NCBI GenBank assembly: GCA_900315555.1
Contig: OMZN01000041.1
Span: forward strand, 1 to 64,000
Direction: 5' to 3'
Length of the DNA stretch: 64,000 nt
Source: an uncultured Eubacteriales bacterium
Lineage (GTDB): Bacteria; Bacillota; Clostridia; Peptostreptococcales; Anaerovoracaceae
Numbering within the stretch: the first letter of the stretch is position 1; each line of letters opens with the position of its first letter. A program made the position numbers and the translations under genes. Under the pieces are notes generated by a model that saw nothing but the letters and a program-made list of their open reading frames with translations, did no database searches and was not told the origin of the DNA. This document shows, piece after piece, positions 8,166 through 33,753 of the stretch.

Positions 8166-8199
8166 CTCATTGAATCTTGGATTGCAAAAGGATGACAGC

Positions 8200-8958
8200 A
8201 TGAAAATCATTGATGAACTTGCACTGAAAGGGACGCATGCCACAGCGGCCAGCAGGCGGATCCTGCGCGACGGAACGGAGCGGATGGAAACGCGGGAATT
8301 GCTGGGAGAGGTGCTTCTTAAAATCTGTGTCGATGGCGAAAGCGCCGGGGAAATTATGTGCACGCCTGAGCGCCTTCCCGAGCTGGTGACAGGCTGGTTG
8401 CGCTATGCCGGAAAGATCACGGCGGCTGATGAGATCGAGACCATTCGGTTCTTTGAGGAACCCAAAACCGCGCCGCTGCGGCTTGCAGCGGAGGTTGCCC
8501 TGCGGCCTTCGAAGGCAGAGGCGGCGCCGGTTCGCTCGGACGCGAGCTCACTGCAGCCTGCGGATCTCTTTGCGCTGGCGGATCGCTTCGATGAAGGGCT
8601 GCCGCAGCGCGAGAGGACTGGTGCGACGCATAATTGTATGCTGGCGCAGGTTGGTGGGGCAGAACCCGAGATTCTATTCCGCAGCGAGGATGCCGGGCGG
8701 CATAGTGCCATGGATAAAGCCATTGGCTGGGGCCTGCTGCATGATGTGGATTTCTCGGCGTGCCTGCTTTATGCCAGCGGCCGAACGAGCCGCGCCATGG
8801 TGCTGAAGGCTGTCCGTGCCGGTGTGCAGACACTGGCCGGGCGTTCGCATGTCTCCCTGGGAGCAGTGCGGCTGGCTGCTGAAAGCGGCCTGACTTTGGT
8901 GGGATTTTGTGATGGCCGGGGCATGAATGTTTATGCGCCGGAAAGGAGAATGGTGTAA
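8200..8958 (+). CDS. fdhD: FdhD-family protein lacking the usual CxxC
   Basis: FdhD transfers sulfur from a desulfurase to the molybdenum cofactor of formate dehydrogenase. This 252-residue homologue keeps SEDAGRHSAMDK and the long C-terminal block GRTSRAMVLKAVRAG ... GLTLVGFCDGRG typical of FdhD. The loop that normally holds the catalytic CGxCG is replaced by a Ser/Ala/Asp-rich segment (PVRSDASS), so sulfurtransfer by the known mechanism is doubtful. The ATG at 8200 has AAGGAT seven bases upstream; ATGs at 8155 and 8158, overlapping the previous stop, are alternatives. No formate dehydrogenase gene is present in the window. Confidence 0.78.
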   Translation: MKIIDELALKGTHATAASRRILRDGTERMETRELLGEVLLKICVDGESAGEIMCTPERLPELVTGWLRYAGKITAADEIETIRFFEEPKTAPLRLAAEVALRPSKAEAAPVRSDASSLQPADLFALADRFDEGLPQRERTGATHNCMLAQVGGAEPEILFRSEDAGRHSAMDKAIGWGLLHDVDFSACLLYASGRTSRAMVLKAVRAGVQTLAGRSHVSLGAVRLAAESGLTLVGFCDGRGMNVYAPERRMV

Positions 8959-9797
8959 TGGAGCGGATCGACTGGAACCAGAAATGGAAGGAAGAGGGCG
9001 AACGCTGGTGTCACGCCTCGGATAAAGCGTTCTGGGATGCCTTTGCACCGCGCTTTCGCAAGAAGCCGGCACCGGGCGAGGAGGATCCTTATCTCGAACA
9101 GTTTTATGCCTTCTCCGGGTTCCTGCCCGGCGAGATAATCTTTGACATGGGATGCGGCTCGGGTACGCTGGCCATTCCCTTTGCGGAGCGGGGCCATGAG
9201 GTATGGGCTGCCGATTTCAGTGAGAAAATGCTGAAGTATCTGATGATCGGTGCCCGGGAGGCCGGGGTGGCTGAGCGGATTCATCCCATCGTGCTTGATT
9301 GGAATGAAGACTGGAGCCTGCGCCGTGATCTGCCGGTTTGTGACGTGGCAGTGGCTTCCCGCTCACTGGTCTTTCGCGATCTGACCGCTTCCCTCCTGCA
9401 TTTGGAAGCGCGGGCGCGGCGGCGCGTCTGCATCGGCGCCTGGGACAGCCCGGCCAAGAGCTACGATCGGGTGGTCGCCAAGCAGATCGGCTATGAACGA
9501 CCGGGGTATGGATGCTATGTTTTTATTCTCAATGAGCTGATCGATCGGGACCGCATGCCAGAGCTCCGCTTTATTCGCTATCCGATGGGGCGCCATACCC
9601 GTTTTGCCTCAAAAGATGAACTATTTCGAGGCATCCGCGCCTCTTTCCGCTATCCTCTGACGGCAGCGCAGGAAGAGAAGCTTGCCGGCTACCTCGCGGC
9701 ACATGCGACGCACTATGAGGGAAAGAAGGGTGCTTACTGGGCCCTGGATCATGCCGAGGAATCTACGCTGGCGCATATTCGCTGGGATGTGGAATGA
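8958..9797 (+). CDS. Class I SAM-dependent methyltransferase
   Basis: A 279-residue methyltransferase with motif I FDMGCGSGTLAIPF near residues 60-73 and an acidic post-I site AADFS. The C-terminal half contains GAWDSPAKSYDRVV and helical segments similar to methyltransferases found beside molybdenum or tungsten enzyme genes in anaerobes, but I cannot identify the substrate. The stop of fdhD and this start share one base (TAATG), which suggests translational coupling with fdhD. Confidence 0.82.
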   Translation: MERIDWNQKWKEEGERWCHASDKAFWDAFAPRFRKKPAPGEEDPYLEQFYAFSGFLPGEIIFDMGCGSGTLAIPFAERGHEVWAADFSEKMLKYLMIGAREAGVAERIHPIVLDWNEDWSLRRDLPVCDVAVASRSLVFRDLTASLLHLEARARRRVCIGAWDSPAKSYDRVVAKQIGYERPGYGCYVFILNELIDRDRMPELRFIRYPMGRHTRFASKDELFRGIRASFRYPLTAAQEEKLAGYLAAHATHYEGKKGAYWALDHAEESTLAHIRWDVE

Positions 9798-9938
9798 AGC
9801 GCGCTCAGAAGAACAGAAAATTCAGCGTGAAATCGAAAAAACGTTAGCCAGACAACAGAGATCTTTTCCTGACTGCGCTATACTATGCAGGTAGGACGGT
9901 CGACAAGACTGTTCCAAGAGAGAAGGGAGAGATATTTC

Positions 9939-12900
9939 ATGACTAGGAAAGGCGATGTACATTGGATACAGCGGCTGTGGATCATCCTGCTGACGATCGC
10001 CGTCGTTGTTTCTATGTCCGGACTGACGGCATTGACCGCACATGCAGCGGACAGCCAGACCGTCACCGCCGGAGATGAGATCACCGCCGGCGGTACCTAC
10101 CAGGTGGCGCCCGGTGCATCAGGCGGCGTGATTACCGTCAGCACGAGCGAGGCGGTCACGCTGGTTGGCAGCGGTGTCAGCGCAGAGGCGAACACCAACC
10201 TGAGCTTCGATTGTACCGAGGCAGGTACGGATCTGACGGTGCAGGATCTTCACATCAGCAATACGTCGACTACTGTACCGACGTTCAATTTCACCGGTGC
10301 CGGCAATAAGCTGAGGTATGACGGCACAAGCATGATTGATAAGGACACCAATGCAACGGGCTATGCGCTGATTCATGTGCCGTATGGTGCGGAACTGACG
10401 ATCAGCGGCAAGGACGCAGACGATTCGCTGTATATGTACAAGCGTGAACAGGGTGCAGGCATTGGCGGCAACAGCGGCGAAGGCAACGGCACCATCACCT
10501 TTGAGCAGGGCAACCTGTTCATTAAGGGCTCCAAGCAGGGGGCGGTCATCGGCTGCGGTGCGAATGCCTCAAGTGCGACCACTGGGGAGATTACCATCAA
10601 CGGCGGCACGATCAATATCATCGGTGTGGCACGCAGTGCGGGCATCGGCGGCAGCGCCGGCAGCGACGGTGCGGCTTCCGGTACCGTGGTCAATGTCAAT
10701 GGCGGGCTGATCAATGTCAATGCTGACTGGACCGGCGCAGCCATCGGCGGCGGCGGGTATGCCGGCGGCAACGATGCCGACGGCGGTACGCTGGTCTACA
10801 AGGCCGGTTCCATCCGAACGTTCATCGATCAGAATGCGGTCACCAGCTGGGGCGTGGATAACGCCGGAGTACATGACAACAAAGCGATTACAGCGAGCGT
10901 CGTCAACAGCAGCGGTGAAGATCTGGCGCTGCTGGCGTTTGATACATCCAAGATGGATGATGCTGACCGAACCGGCACCTATTCCATTGCCGAAGGGAAC
11001 AGCACGCTTTACAGCGGCAGTCTCCATCAGTACACTTACGTCAACGAAAACACGGAAAAAGACGGTCAGACGGCGGTTTCGGATACGAAGAGCAACTGGA
11101 AGGACAATCTCGATGATGCCCATCTGTATCTGTATCTGACCAAGGACAACCATACCCTGGATGTCAACGGCGAAACATGGAATGTGTCCTGGAACAAAGA
11201 CAGCAGTTCTTTCGAGCTGCAGCATGTTCAGACAACCTATGGAGAAAATGGCTTTAACGCAGCAAACACAAAATATAACCCGGATGCAAGCAACTATATT
11301 GTAACAACCAAGGCGCAGTGGAAGCTGCTGGCAGATGCGGTCAACCATGGTGATACCTTTAAGGGAAAGACGATCAAGCTGGATGCCGATATCGATTTGA
11401 GCGGCACCGACTGGACACCGATCGGCAATGCAGATCACCATTTCGAGGGAACGCTGGACGGACAGGGGCACAGTATCACCAATCTGTCGGTATCAACGGA
11501 CAGCGGATACAGCGGTCTGTTCGGCTACAATGCCGGTACGATCAGGAATATGACTGTTTCCGGTTCTGTTAAGGATACGTCGAGTAAAGACTTTGTCGGC
11601 GGCATCGCCGGCTTCAACTGCGGCACGATCGAAAAGACTGCCAGCAGCGTGACGATTGAGGCGGGCAGCTGCTATAATGTCGGCGGTATCGCCGGCCTGA
11701 GCACATCCGGCTATTGGGTGAGCGGAAGCGGCATACTGCAGCATATTGAAGATGCAGCCGGCCTTATCACGCAGTGTGCGGTCAATGCGGATGTGACCGG
11801 CTATAGCAAAGTCGGCGGCGTCGCTGGAGAAAACGCCGGCACGGTTTCCAAGTGCAGCACCGCCGGCAAGATCGACGGCACCAACGCTGGTTCGAAGAAC
11901 GGTGTCGGCGGCATCGCCGGACGTAACGGAAACAACAAAACGGCAATGGAAACCGGTATCATCGACAGCTGCTACAGCATGGCCTCGGTCGGCCGGACCG
12001 GGCAGAAATGGGTCGCCGGCATGGCCGGATTCAACAACGGTACCTACGGATGCAGCACAAAGACGGACGAAAACGGGAAGACGGTGAAATACTTCACCTA
12101 TAATGGTGAACAGATCGTCAAGGAACCGTCCACCATCAAAAACAGTTACTTCGCCGGCACGCTGACAGGCATGGATAATACCAATCCGATTGCCGGCAGC
12201 CAGGAGGGCACGGCCAGCAACTGTTATTCGCTGGAAGGCCTGAAGGCAACGGGCAATACAGAGGCCGAAACCGGCATCAAGGTATCGGAAAAAACTCTGA
12301 AATCTTTCTCCATGATCACCAAACTGGGCGATGCCTTTGCAGCGGATCTCAATAGTGCGAATAATGGCTACCCGGTGCTGGCCTATACTCTCTCCGAGGG
12401 AGATCAGGCGGCTGCAGAGCAGAAGATCAGCGCGCTGCAGATCGACAATGTCAAGTCGATCCTCAAGGCACTGCCGGACGCAGAGAACGTTACTGCTGCA
12501 GACAGTGAAGCCGTTGCCAAAGCGCGCACGGCATACAGCAAGCTGACAGATGACCAAAAGGATGCCATCAGCTATCGCCTCTACGACAAGCTGATGGATG
12601 ATGAGGCGGCGCTGAAGGCGTTGAAGCCAAATGCGGTTAAGGCGGAGATTAACGCCCTGCCGGCGGCGGATAAGATTGCCGTGAGCGATCAGGCAGCCAT
12701 CAAGAAGGCCAGAGCAGATTTCGATGCGCTGACATCCGATCAGCAGGATGCGGTCGGCTATACAGCGGTCAAGAAGCTGGAAGCAGCTGAAGCAGCGCTG
12801 ACAGCGGCGCAGAATGCAGCTGCGAAGAAAGCCTTCCAGGCCAGGACGCTCATCACCAAGAAGGCCAAGGCCGGGAAGAAGAAGGTGACCATTCGCTGGA

Positions 12901-13127
12901 CAAAACTGAGCGGCGCAAAGGGCTATAAGATTGTCTACGGAACCAACAAGAAGATCACCAAGAGCAGGAAGACCGTAACCGTCAGCAAAGGTACGGCGAG
13001 CAGCAAGCTGATCAAGAAGCTCAAGACGGGCAGGAGATATTACTATAAGGTCAGAGCCTACAAGACCATTGGCGGCAAGACCGTTTACACCAAATACAGC
13101 AAGATCAGATCTGTCAAGGTGAAATAG
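9939..13127 (+). CDS. Giant secreted GLUG/FN3 surface protein 1
   Basis: A 1062-residue exported protein. The start at 9939 gives a signal peptide with cleavage near AHA-A; GGGAGA lies just upstream and an in-frame ATG at 9885 would add an implausible basic extension. The first third is a glycine-rich beta-helix-like region (GGNSGEG, GGTINI, GGYAGG repeats). The middle has an FEGTLDGQGH entry followed by GLUG-type repeats (GGIAGFNCGTI, GGVAGENAGTV). Then come two ~65-residue helical repeats (INALPAADKI.. / LKALPDAENV..) and a Lys/Arg-rich FN3 domain ending SVKVK. No LPXTG, SLH or choline-binding motif is visible, so how it stays on the wall is unknown. A terminator follows it. Confidence 0.8.
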   Translation: MTRKGDVHWIQRLWIILLTIAVVVSMSGLTALTAHAADSQTVTAGDEITAGGTYQVAPGASGGVITVSTSEAVTLVGSGVSAEANTNLSFDCTEAGTDLTVQDLHISNTSTTVPTFNFTGAGNKLRYDGTSMIDKDTNATGYALIHVPYGAELTISGKDADDSLYMYKREQGAGIGGNSGEGNGTITFEQGNLFIKGSKQGAVIGCGANASSATTGEITINGGTINIIGVARSAGIGGSAGSDGAASGTVVNVNGGLINVNADWTGAAIGGGGYAGGNDADGGTLVYKAGSIRTFIDQNAVTSWGVDNAGVHDNKAITASVVNSSGEDLALLAFDTSKMDDADRTGTYSIAEGNSTLYSGSLHQYTYVNENTEKDGQTAVSDTKSNWKDNLDDAHLYLYLTKDNHTLDVNGETWNVSWNKDSSSFELQHVQTTYGENGFNAANTKYNPDASNYIVTTKAQWKLLADAVNHGDTFKGKTIKLDADIDLSGTDWTPIGNADHHFEGTLDGQGHSITNLSVSTDSGYSGLFGYNAGTIRNMTVSGSVKDTSSKDFVGGIAGFNCGTIEKTASSVTIEAGSCYNVGGIAGLSTSGYWVSGSGILQHIEDAAGLITQCAVNADVTGYSKVGGVAGENAGTVSKCSTAGKIDGTNAGSKNGVGGIAGRNGNNKTAMETGIIDSCYSMASVGRTGQKWVAGMAGFNNGTYGCSTKTDENGKTVKYFTYNGEQIVKEPSTIKNSYFAGTLTGMDNTNPIAGSQEGTASNCYSLEGLKATGNTEAETGIKVSEKTLKSFSMITKLGDAFAADLNSANNGYPVLAYTLSEGDQAAAEQKISALQIDNVKSILKALPDAENVTAADSEAVAKARTAYSKLTDDQKDAISYRLYDKLMDDEAALKALKPNAVKAEINALPAADKIAVSDQAAIKKARADFDALTSDQQDAVGYTAVKKLEAAEAALTAAQNAAAKKAFQARTLITKKAKAGKKKVTIRWTKLSGAKGYKIVYGTNKKITKSRKTVTVSKGTASSKLIKKLKTGRRYYYKVRAYKTIGGKTVYTKYSKIRSVKVK

Positions 13128-13188: not shown

Positions 13189-13312
13189 GCCGATGTTATT
13201 AAAACAACAACATGGGCCGCCGTTTTCGTGTATGATAAAGAGCAGGGCTGCCATGGCGGTCTGCAGTATCGTTTAGGATAAGAGAGTGGGAGAACAGGGA
13301 AAGGTTCGGCGC

Positions 13313-14368
13313 ATGTCCCAAAGGAAATACGACATTCCTATCGCTATATTTTCACTGGCACTGCTGGTGCTTTTTGTTGTTTCCTTCCTTTTAGGGCGCT
13401 ATCCGATTCATCCGATGGAGCTGGGCGGCATGCTGCTCGACAGCTTCCTTCATCTGGTTGAACGTTTTGTGTCGGTCTTTCACCTGCAGGCAGATCTGGG
13501 CATCGAACCGTTCTGGGATCCGCAGACGAGTGCGGTTTTTTTCTCCATTCGGCTGCCGCGCGTGCTCCTGGCCTGCCTTGTCGGCTGCTGCATCTCCACG
13601 GCCGGCGCAGCCTATCAGGGTGTCTTTCAGAATCCGATGGCAGCACCGGATATCCTGGGTGCATCCTCGGGAGCGGCTTTTGGTGCGGCGCTGGCGATTC
13701 TTCTGGGGGCGGCGAGCTGGGGCATCACGGGTATGGCCTTTGTCTTCAGCCTGGTGACGGTGCTGCTGGTCATGCTGGTCAGCCGCTTTGCCAGAGGCAG
13801 CCGCGTGATGACGCTGATCCTCGCCGGTATTATGGTCAGTTCCCTGTTTTCCTCAGGAACATCGTATATTAAGCTGGTGGCCGATCCCAATGACCAGCTA
13901 CCGCAGATCACCTACTGGCTGATGGGAAGCCTGACTGAGGCCAAGCTTCCCGATGTCGGGTTTGCCTGCATTCCGATGCTGATCGGGCTGGTGCCGCTGG
14001 TGCTTCTGCGCTGGCGGATCAATATTCTGACGCTGGGGGACGAAGAAGCAGCCAGCATGGGCGTTGACACTCGCCTGGTACGGACGGTGGTCATCCTCTG
14101 TTCGACGCTGGTGACGGCGGCTTCCGTGTCGGTCAGCGGCATGATCGGATGGGTGGGGCTGGTGATTCCCCATCTTGCGCGGCGCATTGTCGGAAACAAT
14201 TACATGAAGCTGCTGCCGCTGACGATGATCCTCGGTGCCCTCTTCCTTCTGGGAGTCGATGATATTTCCCGCAGCCTGATGGCAAAGGAGATCCCCTTGG
14301 GAATTCTGACCTCCCTGGTGGGCGCACCGTTTTTCCTCTATTTGCTGACGCGGAAGGAGGGATTCTGA
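13313..14368 (+). CDS. FecCD-type ABC transporter permease
   Basis: Membrane component of an iron-siderophore, heme, cobalamin or oxyanion importer. The 351-residue product has eight to ten hydrophobic spans and FecCD hallmarks: RLPRVLLACLVGCCIS near the N-terminus, YQGVFQNPMAAPDILGASSGAAFG, and the cytoplasmic coupling segment GMIGWVGLVIPHLARRIVG. The ATG at 13313 has GGGAAAGG eight bases upstream; an in-frame GTG at 13286 with AGGA is an alternative. The stop shares a base with the ATPase start. Confidence 0.9.
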   Translation: MSQRKYDIPIAIFSLALLVLFVVSFLLGRYPIHPMELGGMLLDSFLHLVERFVSVFHLQADLGIEPFWDPQTSAVFFSIRLPRVLLACLVGCCISTAGAAYQGVFQNPMAAPDILGASSGAAFGAALAILLGAASWGITGMAFVFSLVTVLLVMLVSRFARGSRVMTLILAGIMVSSLFSSGTSYIKLVADPNDQLPQITYWLMGSLTEAKLPDVGFACIPMLIGLVPLVLLRWRINILTLGDEEAASMGVDTRLVRTVVILCSTLVTAASVSVSGMIGWVGLVIPHLARRIVGNNYMKLLPLTMILGALFLLGVDDISRSLMAKEIPLGILTSLVGAPFFLYLLTRKEGF

Positions 14369-15198
14369 TGAGTCTTTCCGTATCGCACCTCAGCTTTTCC
14401 TACGAGGAGGATCACCCGGTGCTTTCTGATCTCAGCTTTACGATCGGAGACGGGCGCATGGTCTGCCTTCTGGGACCCAACGGTGCCGGCAAGAGCACGC
14501 TCTTTAAAACGATTCTGCGGCTGCTGCCGAACTATGAGGGAGAGATTTTCCTGGACGGTGTATCCACACGCGGGCTTTCGATCGCACAGATGGCGCATCG
14601 CATTGCCTATATCCCGCAGTCGGGCGCGCCGACCTTCAATTACACGATGTTCGAGATGGTTCTGATGGGAACGACCGCAGGGCTTAGCCGGCTCTCTTCA
14701 CCGGGCGAGCGCCAGCGGGAGATGGTGAAAGAAGCGATGCAGCGGCTGGGAATCTGGCATCTTGCGGATCGTGGCTTTGCCAGGGTCAGCGGCGGCGAGC
14801 GTCAGCTGGCACTGATCGCGCGGGCGCTGGTGCAGGAGACGAGGGTATTGATCATGGATGAGCCGACGGCCAACCTGGATTATGGCAACGCAATACGGGT
14901 GCTGGAACAGATCCGGCAGCTGGCCGGCAGCGGGTATACCATTCTGCAGGCAACGCATCAGCCGGATCAGGCCTTTCTCTTTGCGGATGAGGTGCTGGCA
15001 CTTAAAGACGGCCGTATCCTTGCGCAGGGATCGCCGCGTGAGGTCATCGACAGCCGCTTGATCGAAACGCTCTATGGCGTGCACGTGGCGGTGGAGCGTT
15101 TGTATGATGACCGGCTGCGTGTCCTGGTGCCGGTTTCGGCGCTGCGTGATCAGGATAAAAGAGGCGGACCAGAGGAAGGCAGGAGCAGGCAACGTTGA
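14368..15198 (+). CDS. FecE-type ABC transporter ATPase
   Basis: ATP-binding subunit of the importer. The 276-residue protein has Walker A GPNGAGKST (residues ~36-44), signature VSGGERQLALIARAL and Walker B VLIMDEPTANLDYG. It belongs to the FepC/BtuD group. The pair is coupled through a TGATG junction. The substrate cannot be told from the ATPase. Confidence 0.92.
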   Translation: MSLSVSHLSFSYEEDHPVLSDLSFTIGDGRMVCLLGPNGAGKSTLFKTILRLLPNYEGEIFLDGVSTRGLSIAQMAHRIAYIPQSGAPTFNYTMFEMVLMGTTAGLSRLSSPGERQREMVKEAMQRLGIWHLADRGFARVSGGERQLALIARALVQETRVLIMDEPTANLDYGNAIRVLEQIRQLAGSGYTILQATHQPDQAFLFADEVLALKDGRILAQGSPREVIDSRLIETLYGVHVAVERLYDDRLRVLVPVSALRDQDKRGGPEEGRSRQR

Positions 15199-15224
15199 AA
15201 GTATGGGAGGAAAGGAAGAAAAGC

Positions 15225-16364
15225 ATGCAGATAAGACGGAAGATGCCTCGCAGGATCATGGCGGTTCTGCTGGTCATCGTACTGGCCGGCGCCATGTTTC
15301 TGTCCGGCTGTGCCGGCACGAAGACTGCGGAGAACCATGGAAGCAGCGGTGCGGCGGCGCAGTCGGAGACGGCCGGCAGTGAAAAGAGCGGTAGGAAGAC
15401 AACGACGTTCACCGATGATTGTGGCCGCAAGGTGAAGGTGCCGGCGAAAATTGATACGGTCATTGCCAGCGGCAGTCTGGCGCAGCTGTTTATCTATGCC
15501 CTGGCGCCGGATACGCTGCAGGCGGTCAATGCCAGATGGTCGGCAGATGCCAAGGCATACATTCCGAAGAAATACCTTTCCCTTGGGCAGGTAGGCAGCT
15601 TCTTCGGCAACCATGATCTCAATTATGAGCAAATTGCCAGGATGAAACCGGATGTCGTGATCGATGTCGGTGAGGCCAAGCCGTCGATGAAGTCGGATCT
15701 TGCGGACATCACCGACAAGACAGGTATCCCGGCCGTTCATATCGATGCCAATTTCGATGATATGGACAAAGCGTTCACCAAGCTGGGCAGGCTGCTGGGG
15801 AAGACAGAGGATGCCAAGGCGCTTGCGGATTATTGCAGCGATGCCTTTGCCATGGTCAAACGCGGCATGAAGAACGTGAAGACAAAGAAGAAGGTCATGT
15901 ACTGCACGCAGGAGGATGGCATGAATGTGCTGGCCAGGCATGCCTATCATTCCCAGGTGATTGACATGCTTTCCGACAATGTGGCAGTGCTTGCTGATCC
16001 CTCCAGCAAGGGCAGCGGCAACGAGGTCAACATGGAGCAGATGATGAACTGGAACCCCGAAGTGATTCTTTTTGCGCCGGACAGCTACTATGATTATGCA
16101 GGCAGCGACAGTGCCTGGAAGACACTGCCGGCCATCAGGAAGGGCAGCTATTACGAGGTGCCCTCCGGTCTCTACAACTGGATGGGATCGCCTCCCTCCT
16201 GCAACCGGATCCTCGGGCTCTTGTGGATGGCCAAGCTGCTTTATCCCTCGCAGATGGACTACAGCCTCAAGGAGCAGGTCAAGACGTATTATGATCTCTT
16301 TTATCACTGCGACCTCAGCGATGGCCGCTACAAAAAGCTTGTGCAGCATTCGATCTTAAAGTAA
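15225..16364 (+). CDS. ABC transporter substrate-binding lipoprotein (FecB/TroA-like class III)
   Basis: Surface lipoprotein feeding the FecCD/FecE pair. The 379-residue product has a lipobox ending SGC with lipidated Cys29, then a class III binding-protein fold: FTDDCGRKVKVP, the MKPDVVIDVG helix, and the interdomain helix after HIDANFDDMDKAFTKLG. The closing block includes YEVPSGLYNWMGSPPSCNR. It starts after AGGAAAGGAAG at 15225; an upstream in-frame TTG at 15195 is less likely. Ligand is uncertain: iron complex is the family default, but FecCD-like molybdate importers (MolBCA) exist and the neighbourhood has molybdenum-enzyme-like folds. Confidence 0.88.
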   Translation: MQIRRKMPRRIMAVLLVIVLAGAMFLSGCAGTKTAENHGSSGAAAQSETAGSEKSGRKTTTFTDDCGRKVKVPAKIDTVIASGSLAQLFIYALAPDTLQAVNARWSADAKAYIPKKYLSLGQVGSFFGNHDLNYEQIARMKPDVVIDVGEAKPSMKSDLADITDKTGIPAVHIDANFDDMDKAFTKLGRLLGKTEDAKALADYCSDAFAMVKRGMKNVKTKKKVMYCTQEDGMNVLARHAYHSQVIDMLSDNVAVLADPSSKGSGNEVNMEQMMNWNPEVILFAPDSYYDYAGSDSAWKTLPAIRKGSYYEVPSGLYNWMGSPPSCNRILGLLWMAKLLYPSQMDYSLKEQVKTYYDLFYHCDLSDGRYKKLVQHSILK

Positions 16365-16390: not shown

Positions 16391-17887
16391 ATGCGGCAGA
16401 TGATGCGAAGTAAAAAACTGAATGACGGGATTGTGCGCATTCTCTGCTTGTACCTTGCGGCTGCGGTGCTGCTGGGTGCATGGTATCTCACCGGCGATCG
16501 GGCGGCAGCCTACGATGAGGTGAAGGAGATATCTGTCACAGTTGGTTACTGGGGCGGTAAAGAATACACGAAGCAGACGGTTTCTCTCGATGAATTGGCC
16601 GATGCATGCGGCACCAACCGCGCGGTCTATACCTGGATCAACGGCGGAGAAAGCCCGGGAACAACAGAGGCCGAGGGAATCTACATTGCTGATATCATGG
16701 ATTACTGCGGCGTTGACATGGGATCGGTATATTACTATAACTTTGCAACCCGCGACGCCGCGACCTATGCCAACTCGGATCAGCAGTGGACGGGCGGACA
16801 GCTGTTCGGCACGCGGTACACCTATGTGAACAGCTTTCAGCGGGCGCTGAAGGATTACGAGGAGGCGAAACAGGCGGGGAAAGAAGAGGATTATCTGCGC
16901 AATCCTGAGAAGCACTATACCATCGATGATATCTATGACTATCAGAACAGATGCTATACCAAGGGCGCCTGGAACAAGCGGGAAACAGTTGAGCCGATGC
17001 TGGCGCTTCGTACAAGATCCAGCACCTGGAAAGGCTATGTGCCGGCAGCTTCTCTTGACTTCGATGAAACGAGCATGCTTTCCACCGGCAAGCCGATCCT
17101 CCTCTTCGGCCAGGCCGGCCGCAACGACATAACACGCAATCTGATGGCGCAGATGGTGACAAAGGTGCATATCTGGTTTAACGGATCGCCTTCCATCACC
17201 CTTTCCAAGCAGTCGATCAAAGGCAAGGTGGGCTCCAGCGATGCGGTCAGTGTGAAGGTCTCCACGCCGGATGAATATCTGAGCGGGCAGATTCAAAAGG
17301 AGATTCGCTTCAAGAGCAGCGATGCCGCCAAGGCGACGGTGGATGAGGACGGGAACGTCAAGATTACCGGTAAGGGAGAGGCGACGATCTCGGCGATATA
17401 TCAGGGGAAGACGGTGGGCACTGTCTCGGTCAGCGGCGTAGCTGCAAAAAAGCAGGCGAAGAAAGAAAAGAATGCCGGATCGGGCACAGGCAGCGGCCAT
17501 AGCAGCGGTGCAGGGAACGGCGCGGGCAGCAGCGGTACGAACGGCAGCAGCGGCGCAGGCACGGCAGGCGGCGTCAGTGACAGCAACAGCGGCGGCTTAA
17601 GCGACAGCGGCAGCAGGCGCATCTCGATGGCTGCCTCCAAAAGCGGCAGTGCCTCCAAGAGCGGCAGTGCAGATAAGAGCGGCGGCAGTGCTGAAGGCGG
17701 CAAGGTCTATGAGATCTCAAAAGATGCAGACACTCTTGAGAACCGTGCAAGTGACCGCAAAAGCCTGCGATGGTGCCTCCTTGCGGCCGCGGTGGCGATG
17801 ATCGGCGGCGGCACCTGGCAGACGGCCGTCTATCGCCGGCAGATTCATTGGATAAAGCAAGCAAAGAAAGCGTATGAGGAATTATGA
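16391..17887 (+). CDS. Membrane-anchored surface protein with SUOX-like and Big_2 domains
   Basis: A 498-residue type I surface protein of no known function. It has an N-terminal signal (residues ~14-34), a SUOX-like region (~45-275) with VSLDELADACG, TEAEGIYIADIMDYCGV and the closing block GKPILLFGQAGRND ... VTKVHIWF, then a bacterial Ig-like (Big_2) domain (~280-355; VDEDGNVKITGKGEATISA), a Gly/Ser-rich stalk (~360-435) and a C-terminal membrane span (~457-475) with a basic cytoplasmic tail. It overlaps the ExbB-like gene by four bases. The architecture is a ligand-binding head on a stalk held in the membrane. Confidence 0.72.
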   Translation: MRQMMRSKKLNDGIVRILCLYLAAAVLLGAWYLTGDRAAAYDEVKEISVTVGYWGGKEYTKQTVSLDELADACGTNRAVYTWINGGESPGTTEAEGIYIADIMDYCGVDMGSVYYYNFATRDAATYANSDQQWTGGQLFGTRYTYVNSFQRALKDYEEAKQAGKEEDYLRNPEKHYTIDDIYDYQNRCYTKGAWNKRETVEPMLALRTRSSTWKGYVPAASLDFDETSMLSTGKPILLFGQAGRNDITRNLMAQMVTKVHIWFNGSPSITLSKQSIKGKVGSSDAVSVKVSTPDEYLSGQIQKEIRFKSSDAAKATVDEDGNVKITGKGEATISAIYQGKTVGTVSVSGVAAKKQAKKEKNAGSGTGSGHSSGAGNGAGSSGTNGSSGAGTAGGVSDSNSGGLSDSGSRRISMAASKSGSASKSGSADKSGGSAEGGKVYEISKDADTLENRASDRKSLRWCLLAAAVAMIGGGTWQTAVYRRQIHWIKQAKKAYEEL

Positions 17888-18516
17888 GTCAAACATCACA
17901 ACTTAGCACCACCCTGCGGTCAATCTGTGCGAGCATGGAGAAGCCTGTTATTGTCATTCTGCTGGGGCTGCTGGTCTTTTCGCTGTTCCTTGTGGGATGG
18001 CTGATTACAGAAGGTGTGACCGAGCGGCGTCGCCTGAAGGTATGGATGCCGCAGCTGGTCGATGCTATCAAGGAACAAACCATACCGCTGGCGCTGCGTA
18101 TCAAGCGGAGCGGCCTTCTTCGCCGCCATAAGGTGGCGCTGCTGGAGGTGACCGATCATAGGGAGCTGACAGACAGCATGCGGGAGGCACTGGCAATCCG
18201 TCTCGTTGATGAGGCGCGCGGCCGCGCAGAGACGATTGTCAAAATCTCTGACATGGTGGTGCGGCTGGGACCGGTCTTCGGCCTCCTTGGGACGCTGATC
18301 CCGCTTGGACCGGGGATCATTGCACTGGGGCAGGGAGATACTTACACCTTGTCACAGTCGCTTTTGACGGCTTTCGATACGACGATCGTCGGCCTGATCT
18401 GTGCGGCGATGGCAGCCATCGTTTCGGCTATACGCAAGCGCTGGTATGCCAACGATATTTCAATTCTGGAAACCCTGATGGACTGCATACTGGAGGTGGA
18501 GAAGCAGGATGCGTAA
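17884..18516 (+). CDS. MotA/TolQ/ExbB-family proton channel subunit
   Basis: A 210-residue inner-membrane protein of the family that couples proton flow to mechanical work. Three hydrophobic spans sit near residues 21-42, 128-149 and 163-183, with a cytoplasmic domain between spans 1 and 2, as in ExbB. The motif RLGPVFGLLGTLIPLGPGI and the polar TM3 sequence AFDTTIVGLICAA are the family signature. Such proteins normally energise TonB or Tol at an outer membrane; no outer-membrane gene is seen here. It overlaps the DUF2149 gene by eight bases. Confidence 0.88.
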   Translation: MSQTSQLSTTLRSICASMEKPVIVILLGLLVFSLFLVGWLITEGVTERRRLKVWMPQLVDAIKEQTIPLALRIKRSGLLRRHKVALLEVTDHRELTDSMREALAIRLVDEARGRAETIVKISDMVVRLGPVFGLLGTLIPLGPGIIALGQGDTYTLSQSLLTAFDTTIVGLICAAMAAIVSAIRKRWYANDISILETLMDCILEVEKQDA

Positions 18517-18844
18517 TCGATTCGAGCGAAGAAACCGGCATATGTTTTCCGACAGCGATGCAGATCCCATGGCTGGTGTTTCCAACCTGGCAGACGTCAT
18601 GCTGGTGCTTGCCGTAGGGATCATGCTGGCCTTGATTATGAACTGGCACATCAGTGTCTCCGGCGGTTCTGTCACGCAGATGGATAAAGGGTCGATGAAG
18701 GAAATCGATCAGTCTCAGCTGCAGACGCAGCAGCGTGACAGCAAAAAGGCTTCCAAGGAGAGCAACCTGCAGAAGAAGGGCACGGTCTACGTCGACAAGA
18801 AGACCGGCAAGATGTATCTGATCGAGCCCGGCAACAACGATTGA
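18509..18844 (+). CDS. DUF2149 (ExbD/TolR-like) membrane protein
   Basis: A 111-residue single-span protein. The sequence DPMAGVSNLADVMLVLAVGIML places Asp29 at the start of the only membrane span, exactly where ExbD, TolR and MotB carry their proton-translocating Asp. A Lys/Gln-rich external segment follows. I read it as the ExbD partner of the preceding gene. DUF2149 has been noted mainly in methanogens and Clostridia; its function is unproven. Confidence 0.75.
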   Translation: MRNRFERRNRHMFSDSDADPMAGVSNLADVMLVLAVGIMLALIMNWHISVSGGSVTQMDKGSMKEIDQSQLQTQQRDSKKASKESNLQKKGTVYVDKKTGKMYLIEPGNND

Positions 18845-18845
18845 T

Positions 18846-19685
18846 ATGAATAAACGAGATTATGAACGGCTGCCGTTGAAAAACGGCTGGGATCTGCCTG
18901 CAGGAGAGAAACCGCCGATGACCGGCAGAAAGCGATGGCTGGCTCGTGCGTATGAGCTGCTGGTCCTGAAGGACGATGCCGCTTATGGCGGAGAAACGGC
19001 AGCAGGAAAAGAAGAGCTTTCTGAAAAGAAACAACCGGAGAAGAAAAGCAGCGTACAGCCAAAAGACTGCACAGCAGAGGATGCACGCGTACAGGGTGAG
19101 GAGAAGCCGGCCGGGAGAGAGGATCCGCTTGCACAGTACATGATCAGTCCGGCTGCGGCGGCACAGAAGAAAAAAAAGAGAAGGCGGCGTCTCCTTGTGA
19201 TCGTGCTTGCGGCTGTTATGCTCATAGGCGGCCGTATCGCCTTCGGACCGCCGATCCTCACGGCGGATATTTCCGGCTACAAGGACGTGAAGATCACGGT
19301 TGTCGGCATCAGGAAAAAACCGTTTACGATTACTGCCGGCACGCTGGCGCGGATGAAGAAGGCAAGTCTGCAGGTGGATGTGCCCGAAGAAGAGACGCCC
19401 CAGGGAGAGGAGCCGGAGCGGGGCAAGGCGATCGGGCCGACGCTTAAAACCTTCCTTGCACATTACGACAAGACGACGGACGATTATAAGGCGCTGCGGG
19501 TCTATACCGAAAACGGTGATTCCAACGCCTATGTGCGGAGCATGAAGGAACAGGAGATCATTCTCTCCATTGCCAATGGCAGCAAGCCTCTGCTGGAAAA
19601 GCAGGCGCCGCTGCGGATCGCTGTGGATGATCAGGAGGCAGATGCCTGGACCGGCTGGGTAAGAAAGCTGGAATTCATCAAGTAG
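18846..19685 (+). CDS. N-in membrane protein with external SUOX-like domain
   Basis: A 279-residue protein with a ~110-residue charged cytoplasmic tail ending in a KKKKRRRR stop-transfer, one membrane span (~116-133) and an external domain (~134-279). The external domain has KPFTITAGTLARM, a GPTLKTFLAHY block, YKALRVYTENGDSNAYV and ends PLRIAVDD...WTGWVRKLEFI, which matches the closing pattern of SUOX/molybdopterin-binding-like folds. No cofactor Cys is seen. It begins one base after the DUF2149 stop. Its topology (N-in, single span, external C-terminal domain) is that of TonB, so it could be the moving partner of the ExbBD-like pair; this is inference. Confidence 0.68.
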   Translation: MNKRDYERLPLKNGWDLPAGEKPPMTGRKRWLARAYELLVLKDDAAYGGETAAGKEELSEKKQPEKKSSVQPKDCTAEDARVQGEEKPAGREDPLAQYMISPAAAAQKKKKRRRRLLVIVLAAVMLIGGRIAFGPPILTADISGYKDVKITVVGIRKKPFTITAGTLARMKKASLQVDVPEEETPQGEEPERGKAIGPTLKTFLAHYDKTTDDYKALRVYTENGDSNAYVRSMKEQEIILSIANGSKPLLEKQAPLRIAVDDQEADAWTGWVRKLEFIK

Positions 19686-19766: not shown

Positions 19767-22700
19767 ATGAAAAAGCATTTGCAGCGAATCACGATCCTGC
19801 TGCTGGTAATGGCCGTGCTGGCCTGGACGGCGCCTTTCGAGGCGCTGCCTGTTTATCCGGCGGCGGCTTCGGCTGAAACAAAAACTGCCGAAGGGGTGGC
19901 AGCATCGGCAAATGAAACCACGGCGGAGGATGCGGAAGCGGCGGATGCTGCTGTGAAGACGGCACAGCACGGCAAAGGCAGCGTGACCATCGACAAGCCC
20001 GCTGCCGTGCAGGGTGATACGGTGAAGGCATCCCTTGCACCGGCGAAAGGCTATTACCTGGCACAGCTTTGTCTCGTCTATAAAGAGAATGGGAAGTCGA
20101 AGTATGCGGTGCAGAAGATCGCCACCGGCGCAGCAGTGCAGGAAGAGGCGCAGACTGTTTCCTTTGTGATGCCGGCAGAGCAGGTGACGGTGCGGGCAGA
20201 CTTCGTTCCGGTCGTCTGGGACGGGACGATTGATCTCACCTGGTATGATGCAGGGCAGGACAGCTATGCGCTGGCTTATCCGGCCCAGCTTGCCGGTGCG
20301 GCAGCGCTGGTCAACGGACTCTTCAACGATATGCCGGTGCGTGCGGTGCAGGATGGAAGCGCTACGGTGAAGATTCCCGATCTGGTCGATGCCGAGGGCA
20401 GTGCGGTCGGCCTTGCGGATACTGCAGACGGTTACGTGAAGGACGATGATCACAGCGGTTATCAGACCTTTGCAGATGTTGACGGTGACGGACGGGATAC
20501 CAGCATCGTCGGCGATATCGGTCTCCTTAAGATCGGTCATGCCAGCGACGAGGTGGGCGGCAACAATAAGGTGACCACCAATACGTACTGGTATGGCAAT
20601 GTCGATTTCACCGGCAAAACGATCAGGCTGACACGCGACATGGACATGGGGGGAGAACTGGCAGGCGGTGCAAAGAAGACCGTCTGCTCTGCCTGGTCCG
20701 GCCCGAACTACATGCCGATCGGCGGTCAGTACAGTATGGACCGCACCAATGGTTACACACGGTTGACAGCCGGCTTCAATGGAAGCTTCGACGGTCAGGG
20801 ACACATGGTTTACAATCTCTATATTTCACGGCATACCGATACCTTTGGCAACTGCCAGGCAGTCGGCCTGTTTGGCCTTGTCGGGGTCAACCGCGTCGAA
20901 TCCGGTACCGTCGGCACACCGGTCATTGAAAACGTTGCCGTCGACGGCATGGTCTACGGCAATCGTTCGATCGGCGGCATCGTCGGCAAGACAGTGCATG
21001 CCAAGGGTGTGAAAATCAGAAACTGCATGAATTTCGCGACGGTTTACAATACCGATGCCAAGGGATGCGGCGGTATTGTCGGTGCGGCATGGTATGAGCC
21101 TGCGTATGGGGACAAGCAGGTGCAGATCGAAAACTGTGCCAACTTCGGCTTCATATGCACCGGTTACAACAAGAACGCCGGCGGCCTTGTCGGCAGCTCG
21201 GAAGCCTTTGTTGCAGACAGCTATTCTATTGGCTATACGGCAGGGGAGGGCAGCGGCAACAGCAGAGCGGGTCAGGCGCTGGGCACCAACAACGGCGGTG
21301 CGGTCTGGTACAACTGCTATGCCCTGCAGGGCGCCAGCTCCTGTACGCAGAGCAGCAGCGGAAGCTATATGCCTTATGTCTACGGGTCGACCGTCGGCAG
21401 CGCCATCCGCGTGCTGGATGCGCCTTCGGCCTTTGCCAGCGGTAAGGGCATGAAGGCGCTCCTCAATGGCAAAGTGAAGAGCGGAGGTACGGATAAATAC
21501 GGCTACATGGACAGCGACAGCGCCGTCATCAAAAACACGAAGCGCGCCTGGGTTGAAGACGGAAGCAGCGATACACAGGAACGCATCTCCTCTCATTTGG
21601 CTGAAGCGCTGCAGAGCGTCGCAAGCTGGCACGATCCGGCGGTGACGCTTTCGGATGAAGCCATGCGTTCGCAGGAAAGCATAGCAGACAGCTTATCTGC
21701 GGTCGATGCGACCGGCTTTCCCATTCCCCGGACCTTCATCCACGACAAATCGAGCCTTTGCGGGATTACCTATACGGGAACGCCGACGAAACAGTACCTG
21801 TCCGGCGAGACCTTTGACACCGGGGATCAGGAAAATCTTTCAACGAGTCCGAACGACAGCGACAGTGCCGCGGCCTTCTCTGTCTGGGCAACATTTGATG
21901 ATGATGGCGACGGTGAAGTCGACAGCTGGACGGAGCTTACCGACTATGAGGTCTGCTATGAACACGGCAGCGAATTCACTGCCGGTGATACGAAGGTAAC
22001 GGTGCGGGGCACCTGCCTTGGAACGAGCTATGAAAAGGAAATCACCGGGCTGCAAGTGACGGCTTGCCAGCTCTTGTCGCTGGAGATCACCGCCGATCCG
22101 ACGAACACGCTCTATGCGTCAGGGGAGACCTTCTGTCCGGATGGTATGACGATTACCACGGAGTATGGTACGGTGAATGGATCGGATAAAACGACGGCTG
22201 TCACTGTCAAAGCGTCGTACGCCGAAGGCAAGGTGTCCTACACGAAGATACGGGAAAGTGCACCGGATGTGAAGATCGAGCTTGGCGAGGAGGCGGCGAA
22301 GCCCTATGCCTGCAGTTTCTCACCGTCGATAAGCGAGAAGCTGACCAAGGCGACGTCCAAGGTCACCGTCTCGCTGACTTACAATGGGACAACGTTGTCG
22401 GCGAAAATTCCGGTCACGGTGCTTTCCTCTTCTGCGCCGCGTCTCGTCAAGGACGGAGCAAGCGATACGCAGACGGTCTATCTTAAGAGTGCTGATGACT
22501 TCCTCTGGTTTGCGAACCAGGTGAGTACGAATGCGGCGGCGGACATGAATGCCGTGCAGGAAGAAGATATCGATCTGTCGGAGGTTCTCACACAGCCGGT
22601 CGGCCTCAGAAGCAAAGAATCCGCTGCTTACGAGGGGATCTATGACGGGCAGGGACATAGTCTCACGCTTAACATGCGGCGATCTTCGGATACGGCCGGG

Positions 22701-24314
22701 CTCTTCTACAGTGTGGCGGGCATGGTCAAAAACCTGACGCTCAAGGGCAGTGTGCAGGGAGGAAGCCATACCGGCGTGGCTGCAGGACAGCTTGACGGCG
22801 GGACGATCAGCAACTGCACTGCCGAAAACGTGTCGGTTAGCGGCAGCAAGCAGGTCGGCGGCCTGGTCGGTCAGATCCTGGGTGAGGATGCGATCATCTC
22901 CGACTGCACAGTCAGCGGGGATATCACCGGCTCGGCTATGGTCGGCGGCCTGGCGGGTGAAGCTGACGATCTCACCGCAAAGATTACCGGCTGCCAGGTG
23001 GGTGATCATACGACGGTGACGGCTTCGGCATTGGACGGAGGCGGTGTCGGCGGTCTGATCGGCGTTTCCGGCAAGCTCAGGGCAAGCGGCAATGCCGGTG
23101 CGGCAATCAGCAGATGCCGCAGCGAAGCTAAGGTCAGCGGTACGGCAGCGGGAGGAAAGTCAGGCTATGTCGGTGGTCTCATCGGACTTCTTCGCAGCGG
23201 TGAACTCGAGCAGTCGGCCAATAAGGGCGAAGTAGCTTCCAAGGGGGAAAACCTCGTTGGCGGCATTGCCGGGCAGGCGGCGGCCAATGCGGTGATTCGT
23301 GCGGCTTACAGCAATGGCAGCCTGTCCCTTGCAGAGGCGGGTTATTCCGCCATGGCGGGCGGCATAGCCGGTGCAGCTGCCAGTGGTACAGTGGTTAAGA
23401 ACTGTTACGCATCCGGAGCAGTCAGCTCAGATGAGGCGGAATCAGCAGCGGGGAAGCCTGCGGTCGGTGCAGCCTTCGGATCGATACACGACAAAAGTAT
23501 ATTGGAAAATAACGTCGCGCTGCAGGGCAGCGCACCGCAGCTCATAGGGTCTGCGGCTGCGGTCAGCGAGGCGCAGGCGGTCTTGCTGTCCAAGGAGGAT
23601 CTGCAGGGGGATGCGGCTCTGACCAGGCTGAACGCGGAGGATGAGCAGGCGTACCAGACGACATGTGACAGCTGGCCGATCTTCCGGTGGGAAACGCCGA
23701 CGCATACTGCCGGCGCGGAGACAAAGGAAAATGTGACGGCGGCGACGCATGCGAAGGCGGGTGGATATGACCTGGTGGTTCGCTGCAAAAAATGTCACAA
23801 GGTGATCAGCAGCAGGCACATTGTGGAGATTCCTCTCTCCCTCTGCACCATCAGCGGCATAGCGGATAAGATCTACACTGGGAAAGACATCACGCAGGCG
23901 GTGGCCGTGCGGTTTGCGGGCACAAAGGTGACGGTCGGGGTGAGCTATCCTGACGGGCGCAGGACGATCGGCACGCATACCGTCACCATCACCGGCACCG
24001 GCAGCTGCACGGGCACGATCCGAAAGACCTATCGGATTCTGCCGGCGAAGGTGACCTCGCTGACGGCAAAGGCCGGGAAAAGATCCTTTGCCACACGCTG
24101 GAAGAAGGGCGCCGGCGGCGTGCATTACCAGATAGCCTACCGGCGGCAAGGCAGGAAAGCCTGGACGGTGAAAACCGCCACGGCAAATGCAAAAACGGTG
24201 ACGAAGCTGAAGACGAAGCAAAGGTATCAGGTGCGGGTGCGCGCCTATCGCAAAGTTGGCGGCAGAAACTACTGCGGCGCCTGGTCGTCTGCTGTGAAAG
24301 TCAAGGTGAAATGA
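19767..24314 (+). CDS. Giant secreted GLUG/FN3 surface protein 2
   Basis: A 1515-residue exported protein ending the operon. It has a signal peptide (residues 1-36), an SVTIDKPAAVQGDTVKASL bacterial-repeat domain, a first GLUG block (GGIVGKTVHAKGV, GGIVGAAWYEP, GGLVGSSEAF), two bacterial Ig-like segments around residues 630-890, and a second GLUG block (GGLVGQILGED, GGLAGEADDL, GGLIGVSGKL, GGIAGQAAAN). Then a CKKCHKV segment of the kind repeated in clostridial cell-surface proteins and a basic FN3 domain ending VKVKVK. It lacks LPXTG and SLH signals. The C-terminus resembles that of GLUG protein 1, so both probably attach to the envelope in the same way. Confidence 0.8.
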   Translation: MKKHLQRITILLLVMAVLAWTAPFEALPVYPAAASAETKTAEGVAASANETTAEDAEAADAAVKTAQHGKGSVTIDKPAAVQGDTVKASLAPAKGYYLAQLCLVYKENGKSKYAVQKIATGAAVQEEAQTVSFVMPAEQVTVRADFVPVVWDGTIDLTWYDAGQDSYALAYPAQLAGAAALVNGLFNDMPVRAVQDGSATVKIPDLVDAEGSAVGLADTADGYVKDDDHSGYQTFADVDGDGRDTSIVGDIGLLKIGHASDEVGGNNKVTTNTYWYGNVDFTGKTIRLTRDMDMGGELAGGAKKTVCSAWSGPNYMPIGGQYSMDRTNGYTRLTAGFNGSFDGQGHMVYNLYISRHTDTFGNCQAVGLFGLVGVNRVESGTVGTPVIENVAVDGMVYGNRSIGGIVGKTVHAKGVKIRNCMNFATVYNTDAKGCGGIVGAAWYEPAYGDKQVQIENCANFGFICTGYNKNAGGLVGSSEAFVADSYSIGYTAGEGSGNSRAGQALGTNNGGAVWYNCYALQGASSCTQSSSGSYMPYVYGSTVGSAIRVLDAPSAFASGKGMKALLNGKVKSGGTDKYGYMDSDSAVIKNTKRAWVEDGSSDTQERISSHLAEALQSVASWHDPAVTLSDEAMRSQESIADSLSAVDATGFPIPRTFIHDKSSLCGITYTGTPTKQYLSGETFDTGDQENLSTSPNDSDSAAAFSVWATFDDDGDGEVDSWTELTDYEVCYEHGSEFTAGDTKVTVRGTCLGTSYEKEITGLQVTACQLLSLEITADPTNTLYASGETFCPDGMTITTEYGTVNGSDKTTAVTVKASYAEGKVSYTKIRESAPDVKIELGEEAAKPYACSFSPSISEKLTKATSKVTVSLTYNGTTLSAKIPVTVLSSSAPRLVKDGASDTQTVYLKSADDFLWFANQVSTNAAADMNAVQEEDIDLSEVLTQPVGLRSKESAAYEGIYDGQGHSLTLNMRRSSDTAGLFYSVAGMVKNLTLKGSVQGGSHTGVAAGQLDGGTISNCTAENVSVSGSKQVGGLVGQILGEDAIISDCTVSGDITGSAMVGGLAGEADDLTAKITGCQVGDHTTVTASALDGGGVGGLIGVSGKLRASGNAGAAISRCRSEAKVSGTAAGGKSGYVGGLIGLLRSGELEQSANKGEVASKGENLVGGIAGQAAANAVIRAAYSNGSLSLAEAGYSAMAGGIAGAAASGTVVKNCYASGAVSSDEAESAAGKPAVGAAFGSIHDKSILENNVALQGSAPQLIGSAAAVSEAQAVLLSKEDLQGDAALTRLNAEDEQAYQTTCDSWPIFRWETPTHTAGAETKENVTAATHAKAGGYDLVVRCKKCHKVISSRHIVEIPLSLCTISGIADKIYTGKDITQAVAVRFAGTKVTVGVSYPDGRRTIGTHTVTITGTGSCTGTIRKTYRILPAKVTSLTAKAGKRSFATRWKKGAGGVHYQIAYRRQGRKAWTVKTATANAKTVTKLKTKQRYQVRVRAYRKVGGRNYCGAWSSAVKVKVK

Positions 24315-31318: not shown

Positions 31319-31324
31319 GAAAAC

Positions 31325-31333
31325 AGTATACCA
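31325..31333 (-). promoter_or_regulatory. Extended -10 promoter giving a leaderless THEP1 transcript
   Basis: On the minus strand TGGTATACT ends at 31325 and the ATG begins at 31318, so a start seven bases after the -10 would be the A of the ATG. No good -35 is visible. Confidence 0.55.
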
Positions 31334-31364
31334 CATATGTCACGGAAGCTTTAGGAGAAGGAGC

Positions 31365-32030: not shown

Positions 32031-32037
32031 CATGTAA

Positions 32038-33659: not shown

Positions 33660-33753
33660 GACAGATGCTCCTTGACCGCAGGGGAGGGGGCTGCGTATGC
33701 TTCTTAAGACACTGCGCATATTTCCCCCGCCTGTAATATGTGGTTCGTTCCGG

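Follow-up and report, generated by a model that had tools for sequence, protein, structure and literature searches.

Ton-type motors are understood as reaching an outer membrane. In the passages available from PMC12204202, the span of TonB carries a conserved motor-binding His, new force transducers are described for related motors, and Ton systems among Firmicutes are placed only in Negativicutes. In E. coli, the D-box of TonB lies immediately outside the span and is bound by ExbD through strand recruitment (PMC10907165, available text). The hmu operons of Bacteroidota carry genes for an ExbB-type protein and DUF2149 (PMC10434189, in part), and in B. thetaiotaomicron, HmuS is equipped with membrane helices at both its N- and its C-terminus (PMC12583661, in part). 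What the hmu membrane proteins do is still unsettled according to the accessible part of PMC13227078. PruR is presented in the accessible part of PMC13259868 as a signalling pterin receptor without the Moco cysteine. No description of a system combining ExbB, DUF2149 and a SUOX protein was found in the titles and abstract openings of the open-licence literature searched.

The window, which is the whole stretch of DNA analysed (64,000 nucleotides), contains a series of genes on one strand, closely spaced or overlapping, that begins at 13286 and is closed by P279, the subject of a preliminary description. The genes are ordered as FecCD/BtuC-type permease, BtuD/FepC-type ATPase, Peripla_BP_2 lipoprotein, P498, ExbB-like, DUF2149, and P279. 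The features of the run and its flanks were as follows.

9885 to 13127, + strand: large secreted surface protein of the upstream flank, with a weak fn3 match below the Pfam cut-off
13286 to 14368, + strand: FecCD/BtuC-type permease
14368 to 15198, + strand: BtuD/FepC-type ABC ATPase
15195 to 16364, + strand: Peripla_BP_2 substrate-binding lipoprotein
16391 to 17887, + strand: P498, with a signal/N-terminal helix, SUOX-like domain, Big_2, Gly/Ser-rich disordered linker, and C-terminal span
16502 to 17182, + strand: SUOX-like domain of P498, residues 38–264 (SoxC 2xts, Z 10.7, r.m.s.d. 3.3, 133 aligned, by VIA-align; sequence profile built here, E 1e-7)
17192 to 17449, + strand: Big_2 of P498, residues 268–353 (Pfam, profile, and model)
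17705 to 17719, + strand: juxtamembrane box VYEIS of P498, residues 439–443, within KVYEIS
17765 to 17821, + strand: C-terminal span of P498, about residues 459–477
17884 to 18516, + strand: ExbB/MotA-type channel (PF01618, E 1.2e-9)
18509 to 18844, + strand: DUF2149, ExbD-like (PF09919, E 1.9e-11, not the ExbD family PF02472), one span with Asp29, followed by GTVYxDxxxGKxYLxE
18846 to 19685, + strand: P279, 279 aa with an ATG start, predicted N-in single-span protein with an external SUOX/PruR-fold domain
19191 to 19244, + strand: transmembrane span of P279, residues 116–133 (sequence, model helix, and charge count)
19254 to 19682, + strand: external SUOX/PruR-fold domain of P279, residues 137–279 (profile and predicted structure)
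19767 to 24314, + strand: large secreted Glug/fn3 surface protein of the downstream flank

P498 and ExbB overlapped by four bases and ExbB and DUF2149 by eight bases, and base 18845 was the sole gap between the end of the DUF2149 stop codon and the start of P279. The position one base after an ExbD-like gene, beside an ExbB/ExbD-like pair, had been given in the preliminary description and was borne out by these assignments, with DUF2149 as the ExbD-like member. Both flanking surface proteins belonged to the same broad similarity cluster. The importer genes resembled the BtuCDF/FecBCD-type importers, including HI_1472, in that a FecCD permease, an ATPase, and a Peripla_BP_2 lipoprotein lay upstream on the same strand, whereas in the window they shared one gene run with a likely proton motor. 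HI_1472, which we take to be MolA, was the third PDB match of the solute-binding protein (3.7e-12), and the first two matches carried no ligand name.

The transmembrane span of P279 was LLVIVLAAVMLIGGRIAF (about residues 116–133), which was preceded by KKKKRRRR. Because the 20 residues ahead of the span contained eight Lys or Arg and no Asp or Glu, P279 was assigned as N-in, and the AlphaFold2 model contained a helix at residues 102–132. The previously proposed TonB-like topology, with an external C-terminal domain, was therefore retained. P279 is likened to TonB by this N-in arrangement of a single span, but it differs from TonB by lacking a span His, a proline-rich/helical linker, and a TonB C-terminal domain. 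No His was present in residues 116–133, no aromatic-E-[IML] sequence was located beside the span on the outside, and in the model the SUOX domain started at about residue 137, about 4–10 residues past the span, without a reaching linker. PF03544 gave no match to P279 at E ≤ 1, and the TonB C-terminal domain was absent from the matches listed by Foldseek and VIA-align for its model, an absence that has no weight by itself.

P279 is present in one copy in the genome. In an alignment of 36 rows, comprising P279 and its relatives, 26 rows had a Cys at the lipobox column, five were N-in with a long cytoplasmic part (the window, L052, L053, L054, and L055), and five had a short N-terminal span. The P279 clade of the tree contained 30 rows, of which 25 had the lipobox and five were N-in. 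The five N-in rows formed one group with a support of 98/100 and one change, and the TonB-like topology therefore appears to be a late, single change of anchor. Judged from the alignment and tree, the N-in span of the P279 lineage is a replacement for the lipid anchor of its relatives. The importer genes were found upstream in the same order at four of the five N-in loci (the window, L053, L054, and L055), and at L052 a carboxylase-like gene was located upstream of the P498 homologue in their place. The N-terminus of P279 was mostly of low confidence in the AlphaFold2 model.

Within residues 7–40 of P279 (window positions 18864–18965), on the cytoplasmic side, an LKNG motif was kept in all five N-in rows, and a predicted helix follows it. 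One genome (G017, loci L033 and L034) contained two ExbB–DUF2149 systems, one with an N-in P279 and the other with a lipoprotein SUOX protein.

P279 alone gave no match to PF00174 at E ≤ 1, and the matches of its relatives had E-values of 4.3e-10, 6.5e-10, and 2.6e-5. Seven of the eight scanned SUOX-type proteins without a C-terminal span passed the PF00174 cut-off (L036, L037 at 12275, L035, L048 twice, L112, and L115), the miss being the SLH protein of L037 at 6619. The 36-row profile matched the sulfite dehydrogenase SoxC at 7.6e-12 together with other sulfite oxidases, and PruR-type chains ranked lower with the same profile (9.7e-5 and 0.15). Residues 141–279 of the AlphaFold2 model had block-mean pLDDT values of 70 to 98, mostly above 87. 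When the model was compared with PruR (PDB code 7kp2) by VIA-align, 124 of 138 residues were aligned with a Z score of 13.7 and an r.m.s.d. of 2.8; the TM score by target was 0.72 and nearly the whole target was covered. The best sulfite oxidase gave a Z score of 14.0 and an r.m.s.d. of 4.2 with 136 residues aligned of 365 (Foldseek/VIA-align), and the two Z scores were tied. By profile and predicted structure, the external domain of P279 is a SUOX fold whose closest whole-domain match is the pterin-binding PruR. The SUOX-like character given to this domain in the preliminary description was thus upheld.

At the column aligned with the Cys of the SoxC CAANG sequence, which we take to be the Moco ligand, no Cys was present in any of the 36 rows, and the P279 family differs from the sulfite oxidases (PF00174) in this respect. 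A Cys kept in 21 of the 36 rows was located elsewhere, at a column occupied by Lys172 in P279. The sole Cys of P279 was residue 75 on the cytoplasmic side, in agreement with the earlier remark that the cofactor cysteine is missing. PruR (PDB codes 7kp2, 7kom, and 7kos) shares with P279 a small extracytoplasmic SUOX domain without the Moco cysteine and the fold of the whole domain. However, PruR occurs in Proteobacteria, where it is soluble in the periplasm and controls DcpA, while P279 is membrane-anchored, occurs in Bacillota, and adjoins a likely proton motor and an importer.

In the ExbB-like protein, Thr137 and Thr167 did not vary in any of 15 rows and lay at positions of threonines in E. 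coli ExbB, which fits the conserved Thr in TM2/TM3 of MotA/TolQ/ExbB channels. Asp29 of DUF2149 was invariant in 12 of 12 rows and aligned with the Asp of the ExbD sequence DVMLVL, in an alignment of DUF2149 and ExbD that covers 20 residues only (hhalign probability 14.5%). Since these three residues align with channel residues of E. coli, proton-driven work by the ExbB–DUF2149 pair is likely on sequence grounds. Neither TonB_C (PF03544) nor Omp85 was matched in the genome by profile searches that both gave matches in control genomes, which makes an outer membrane of the source bacterium unlikely as judged by these two markers.

When the GTDB genomes were scanned with an ExbB alignment, at least 576 relatives were confirmed, and the best 80 of these were taken as named loci. 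The choice was blind to SUOX; the titles name Bacillota, mostly Clostridia, and many of the loci are cut by contig ends, with 32 having 5 kb on both sides. Among these best 80 of at least 576, DUF2149 directly followed ExbB at 78 loci, a SUOX-type protein was present at 53, and a P279-type gene at 31. The corresponding numbers for loci with 5 kb on both sides were 23 of 32 for any SUOX-type protein and 14 of 32 for P279-type genes. Beside the ExbB–DUF2149 core of the 80 loci, a solute-binding protein was found at 33, a BtuC-type permease at 27, and a BtuD-like ATPase at 35. Surface-type proteins of the one broad similarity cluster were present at 72 of 81 clustered loci, the window included. 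Of 299 Bacillota genomes sampled, 23 contained DUF2149. An ECF S component lay near an ExbB–DUF2149–SUOX core at five of the 80 loci, as PF09819 by Pfam in L112 and L118 and by similarity in L070, L073, and L115.

The gene located just upstream of ExbB encoded a C-terminal span at 63 of 71 assessable loci, while the controls, 375 proteins taken from these loci, included 20 with such a span; nine of the 80 loci (best 80 of at least 576) were left out as not assessable. A recognisable SUOX domain was present in 42 of 72 such upstream proteins. In the window this gene is P498, whose disordered linker (about residues 355–453) contained 23 Gly and 25 Ser per 100 residues by model and composition, and whose model ended with a helix at residues 456–497. 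The Foldseek top 50 of the P498 model contained no SUOX chain, and when the PDB was searched with a sequence profile of P498-type proteins, chains of the Big_2 type were matched and SUOX chains were not. Because of these two results, the assignment of a SUOX-like domain to P498 relies on the other profile built here (E 1e-7), the relatives, and VIA-align. When three P498-type proteins were scanned against PF00174, two gave weak matches below the cut-off and one gave none. As far as gene content and predicted spans indicate, the gene kept with ExbB–DUF2149 is the upstream one with the C-terminal span and not P279, and P498 is a better TonB analogue than P279.

In the phylum sample, 20 further DUF2149 regions contained a CobN-like protein in 12 cases and a SUOX-type protein in eight, and none contained both. 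The CobN/HmuS-type proteins of those regions and of L045/L046 (L045 with PF02514 and DUF2162 by Pfam) ended with a C-terminal span. The strict box pattern was fixed with the tails already in view, and the following counts are descriptive and no blind test: an aromatic-E-[IL] box was located 15–23 residues before the C-terminal span in 10 of 10 CobN-type proteins with an intact end (shuffle mean 0.13), and an aromatic-E-[IML] box was present in 11 of 40 SUOX-type tails, 10 of these at 18–23 residues (shuffle mean 1.00, maximum 4 in 500), in 6 of 23 other upstream proteins (shuffle mean 0.65), and in 1 of 68 control C-tail proteins (shuffle mean 1.39). With a looser definition of the box, 26 of 63 fitted, compared with 2 of 20 controls. 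A profile of the SUOX-type tails gave no match to the CobN-type tails of L045/L046 at E ≤ 5 or of the later regions at E ≤ 0.5, and the box is described here as a motif of similar place only. Since only 11 of the 40 SUOX tails fit and the profile missed the L045/L046 tails, the shared box may be convergent or due to chance beyond the CobN set.

A third type of client, of about 470 aa with CobN similarity and a C-terminal span, adjoined ExbB–DUF2149 in L165 (5810–7216) and L167 (8920–10332). These shorter proteins, which lie outside the 10 of 10 count, had IFEV or IFEI before the span; one fits the pattern and the other has FEV. In L128–L131, ExbB–DUF2149 occurred with an upstream C-tail protein with tails such as KKIFELDRNGD and no SUOX protein nearby, and the upstream protein of L128 had no Pfam match.

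When the locus was compared with the Ton system, an ExbB channel with conserved threonines, a putative ExbD-like Asp in a single span, and an adjacent single-span candidate force transducer (P498) with a juxtamembrane box were shared. However, DUF2149 replaces ExbD, P498 has the reverse topology (C-in), and TonB_C and Omp85 are missing from the genome. The Bacteroidota system (hmuYRSTUV) has the same pair of an ExbB (MotA/TolQ/ExbB protein) and DUF2149, and HmuS, with its N- and C-terminal membrane helices, recalls the CobN-type clients of Bacillota that carry a [YF]E[IL] box. In contrast, the operon of the window is without CobN/HmuS, DUF2162, HmuY, and a TonB receptor, and its client is a SUOX–Big_2 protein in a genome without Omp85. 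PF02514 (CobN) and PF09930 (DUF2162) gave no match among the nine operon and flank proteins scanned.

We consider the chances about even that the motor passes its force to P498 and that P279 has an accessory role as a ligand-binding subunit, in an uptake system with the BtuC, BtuD, and solute-binding protein genes. In the energised core, DUF2149 would stand in for ExbD beside the ExbB-type channel, and the third component would be P498, which has a topology reverse to that of TonB and runs from its signal through the SUOX-like domain, Big_2, and the disordered linker to the YE[IML] box and the C-terminal span. Proton flow through ExbB–DUF2149 would move DUF2149, which would grip the juxtamembrane box of P498 as ExbD grips the TonB D-box and thereby pull or remodel the SUOX-like domain. 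The conserved GTVYxDxxTGKxYxxE stretch of DUF2149 may hold the box, as suggested by the strand recruitment of the TonB D-box by E. coli ExbD. A ligand caught at the cell surface would be handed on by P498 and P279 through their SUOX domains, would reach the binding protein (15195–16364), and would then enter the BtuC/BtuD-type importer. In favour of this uptake system are the SUOX/PruR fold, the channel residues that align with those of E. coli, the C-terminal span of the upstream protein, the box counts, the recurring importer genes, and the D-box precedent. The inconstant presence of P279-type genes (31 of 80 loci, best 80 of at least 576; 14 of 32 with 5 kb flanks) counts against it, as do the small share of SUOX-type tails with the strict box, the 20-residue extent of the alignment between DUF2149 and ExbD, and the lack of XdhC, DUF364, and AFOR near DUF2149 in the SUOX-type genomes among 33 compared.

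A broader proposal, which is possible but doubtful, is that ExbB–DUF2149 represents a second class of Ton-like motor in bacteria without an outer membrane. Such a motor would drive C-tail-anchored transducers of reverse topology through the [YF]E[IML] box and swap its clients. One client would be an HmuS-like chelatase, acting by removal of metal from tetrapyrroles; the other would be a SUOX/PruR-fold–Big_2 protein, with P279 as its relay, by which a cofactor of pterin-like or metal type is captured through the cell wall. The ExbB–DUF2149 pair is widespread in Bacillota, which raises the question of what the motor pulls on where there is no outer membrane. Because two unrelated kinds of client have a similar box, this question is testable, and the finding is also relevant to what the ExbB-type and DUF2149 proteins do in the heme system of Bacteroidota, where their role is unsettled.

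The preliminary description had proposed P279 itself as a TonB substitute, in which ExbB–DUF2149 would drive the N-in span and the external SUOX domain would pull a surface partner. The N-in single span one base after the ExbD-like gene agrees with this, as does the tight adjacency in relatives, in which 21 of 32 P279-type genes start −150 to +200 from the end of DUF2149. However, 25 of the 30 clade rows are lipoproteins and the N-in anchor arose once and late, P279-type genes were missing from the fetched stretch at 49 of 80 loci (best 80 of at least 576), and the span has no His and is followed within about 4–10 residues by the domain instead of a linker. With the upstream gene being the one kept beside ExbB and with no TonB_C or Omp85 in the genome, the proposal was given up as highly improbable. 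P279 could instead be a transmembrane sensor whose SUOX/PruR domain binds a pterin-like ligand outside and whose gained N-terminus (about 115 aa, with LKNG) signals inside, as PruR does via DcpA. PruR is the closest whole-domain structure and a signalling pterin receptor (PMC13259868, accessible part), and the LKNG motif is kept in all N-in rows, but the lipoprotein relatives have no cytoplasmic part, the P279 N-terminus was modelled mostly with low confidence, and the nine operon and flank proteins scanned gave no match to GGDEF/EAL (a DcpA-type partner) or a kinase. A sensor is distinctly unlikely.

A mechanical or adhesive role, in which ExbB–DUF2149 moves Big_2/Glug/SLH surface proteins for gliding or wall remodelling and the SUOX-like domains are structural, is unlikely. 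The frequency of the surface-type cluster (72 of 81 loci), in which 54 of 178 proteins themselves carry a SUOX domain and one (L037) has SLH domains, is in its favour, and MotA/ExbB-type motors also drive motility according to the passages available from PMC12204202. Nevertheless, a solute-binding protein (33 of 80), permease (27 of 80), ATPase (35 of 80), or ECF transporter (5 of 80) lies beside the core in the best 80 of at least 576 loci, and SUOX-fold proteins of known function bind pterins. That the SUOX domain still binds molybdopterin and performs oxidation chemistry is scarcely credible: PF00174 and the sulfite dehydrogenases were matched, but the Cys at the SoxC CAANG column is missing from 36 of 36 rows, and neither a dimerisation domain nor a cytochrome partner was found among the operon proteins scanned.

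Sulfite is not the favoured ligand of the uptake system centred on P498; the best guess, weakly suggested, is a cofactor of pterin-like or metal-bearing kind or an oxyanion of Mo/W. The neighbours in the 80 loci (best 80 of at least 576) included XdhC at nine (two being fragments of 83 and 64 aa, and six in one recurring arrangement), AFOR at six (five in the same arrangement as XdhC), DUF364 at seven (one a 68-aa fragment), NTPase_1 at 11, ModA-like at three, FdhD at two, and YqeC at one. A set of 33 genomes that have DUF2149 or a relative of P279, many of them fragmented, was compared by eye. None of the SUOX-type genomes among them had XdhC, DUF364, or AFOR within 10 kb of DUF2149; the closest matches were DUF364 in G155, about 21 kb away, and AFOR in the CobN-type G182, at about 10 kb. 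Molybdenum/pterin salvage, hinted at by neighbours in some lineages that pointed to molybdenum and tungsten enzymes, was not upheld by this independent check, in which these genes lay elsewhere. Cobalamin was rejected, with no riboswitch at the gathering score in the window or seven loci, as was heme, with no CobN or DUF2162 among the operon proteins of the window that were scanned. A MoaA-type gene is present in the genome of the window.

Upstream of the first surface protein, positions 8155–9797 of the window encode FdhD and a methyltransferase, and similar genes at matching distances were found in L055. At 30722–33830, genes for NTPase_1, a Crp-like regulator, an AIR-carboxylase-like protein, and a QueC/NAD-synthase-like protein lie in a row, the last two of which recall LarB and LarE, which we take to belong to nickel-pincer cofactor synthesis.
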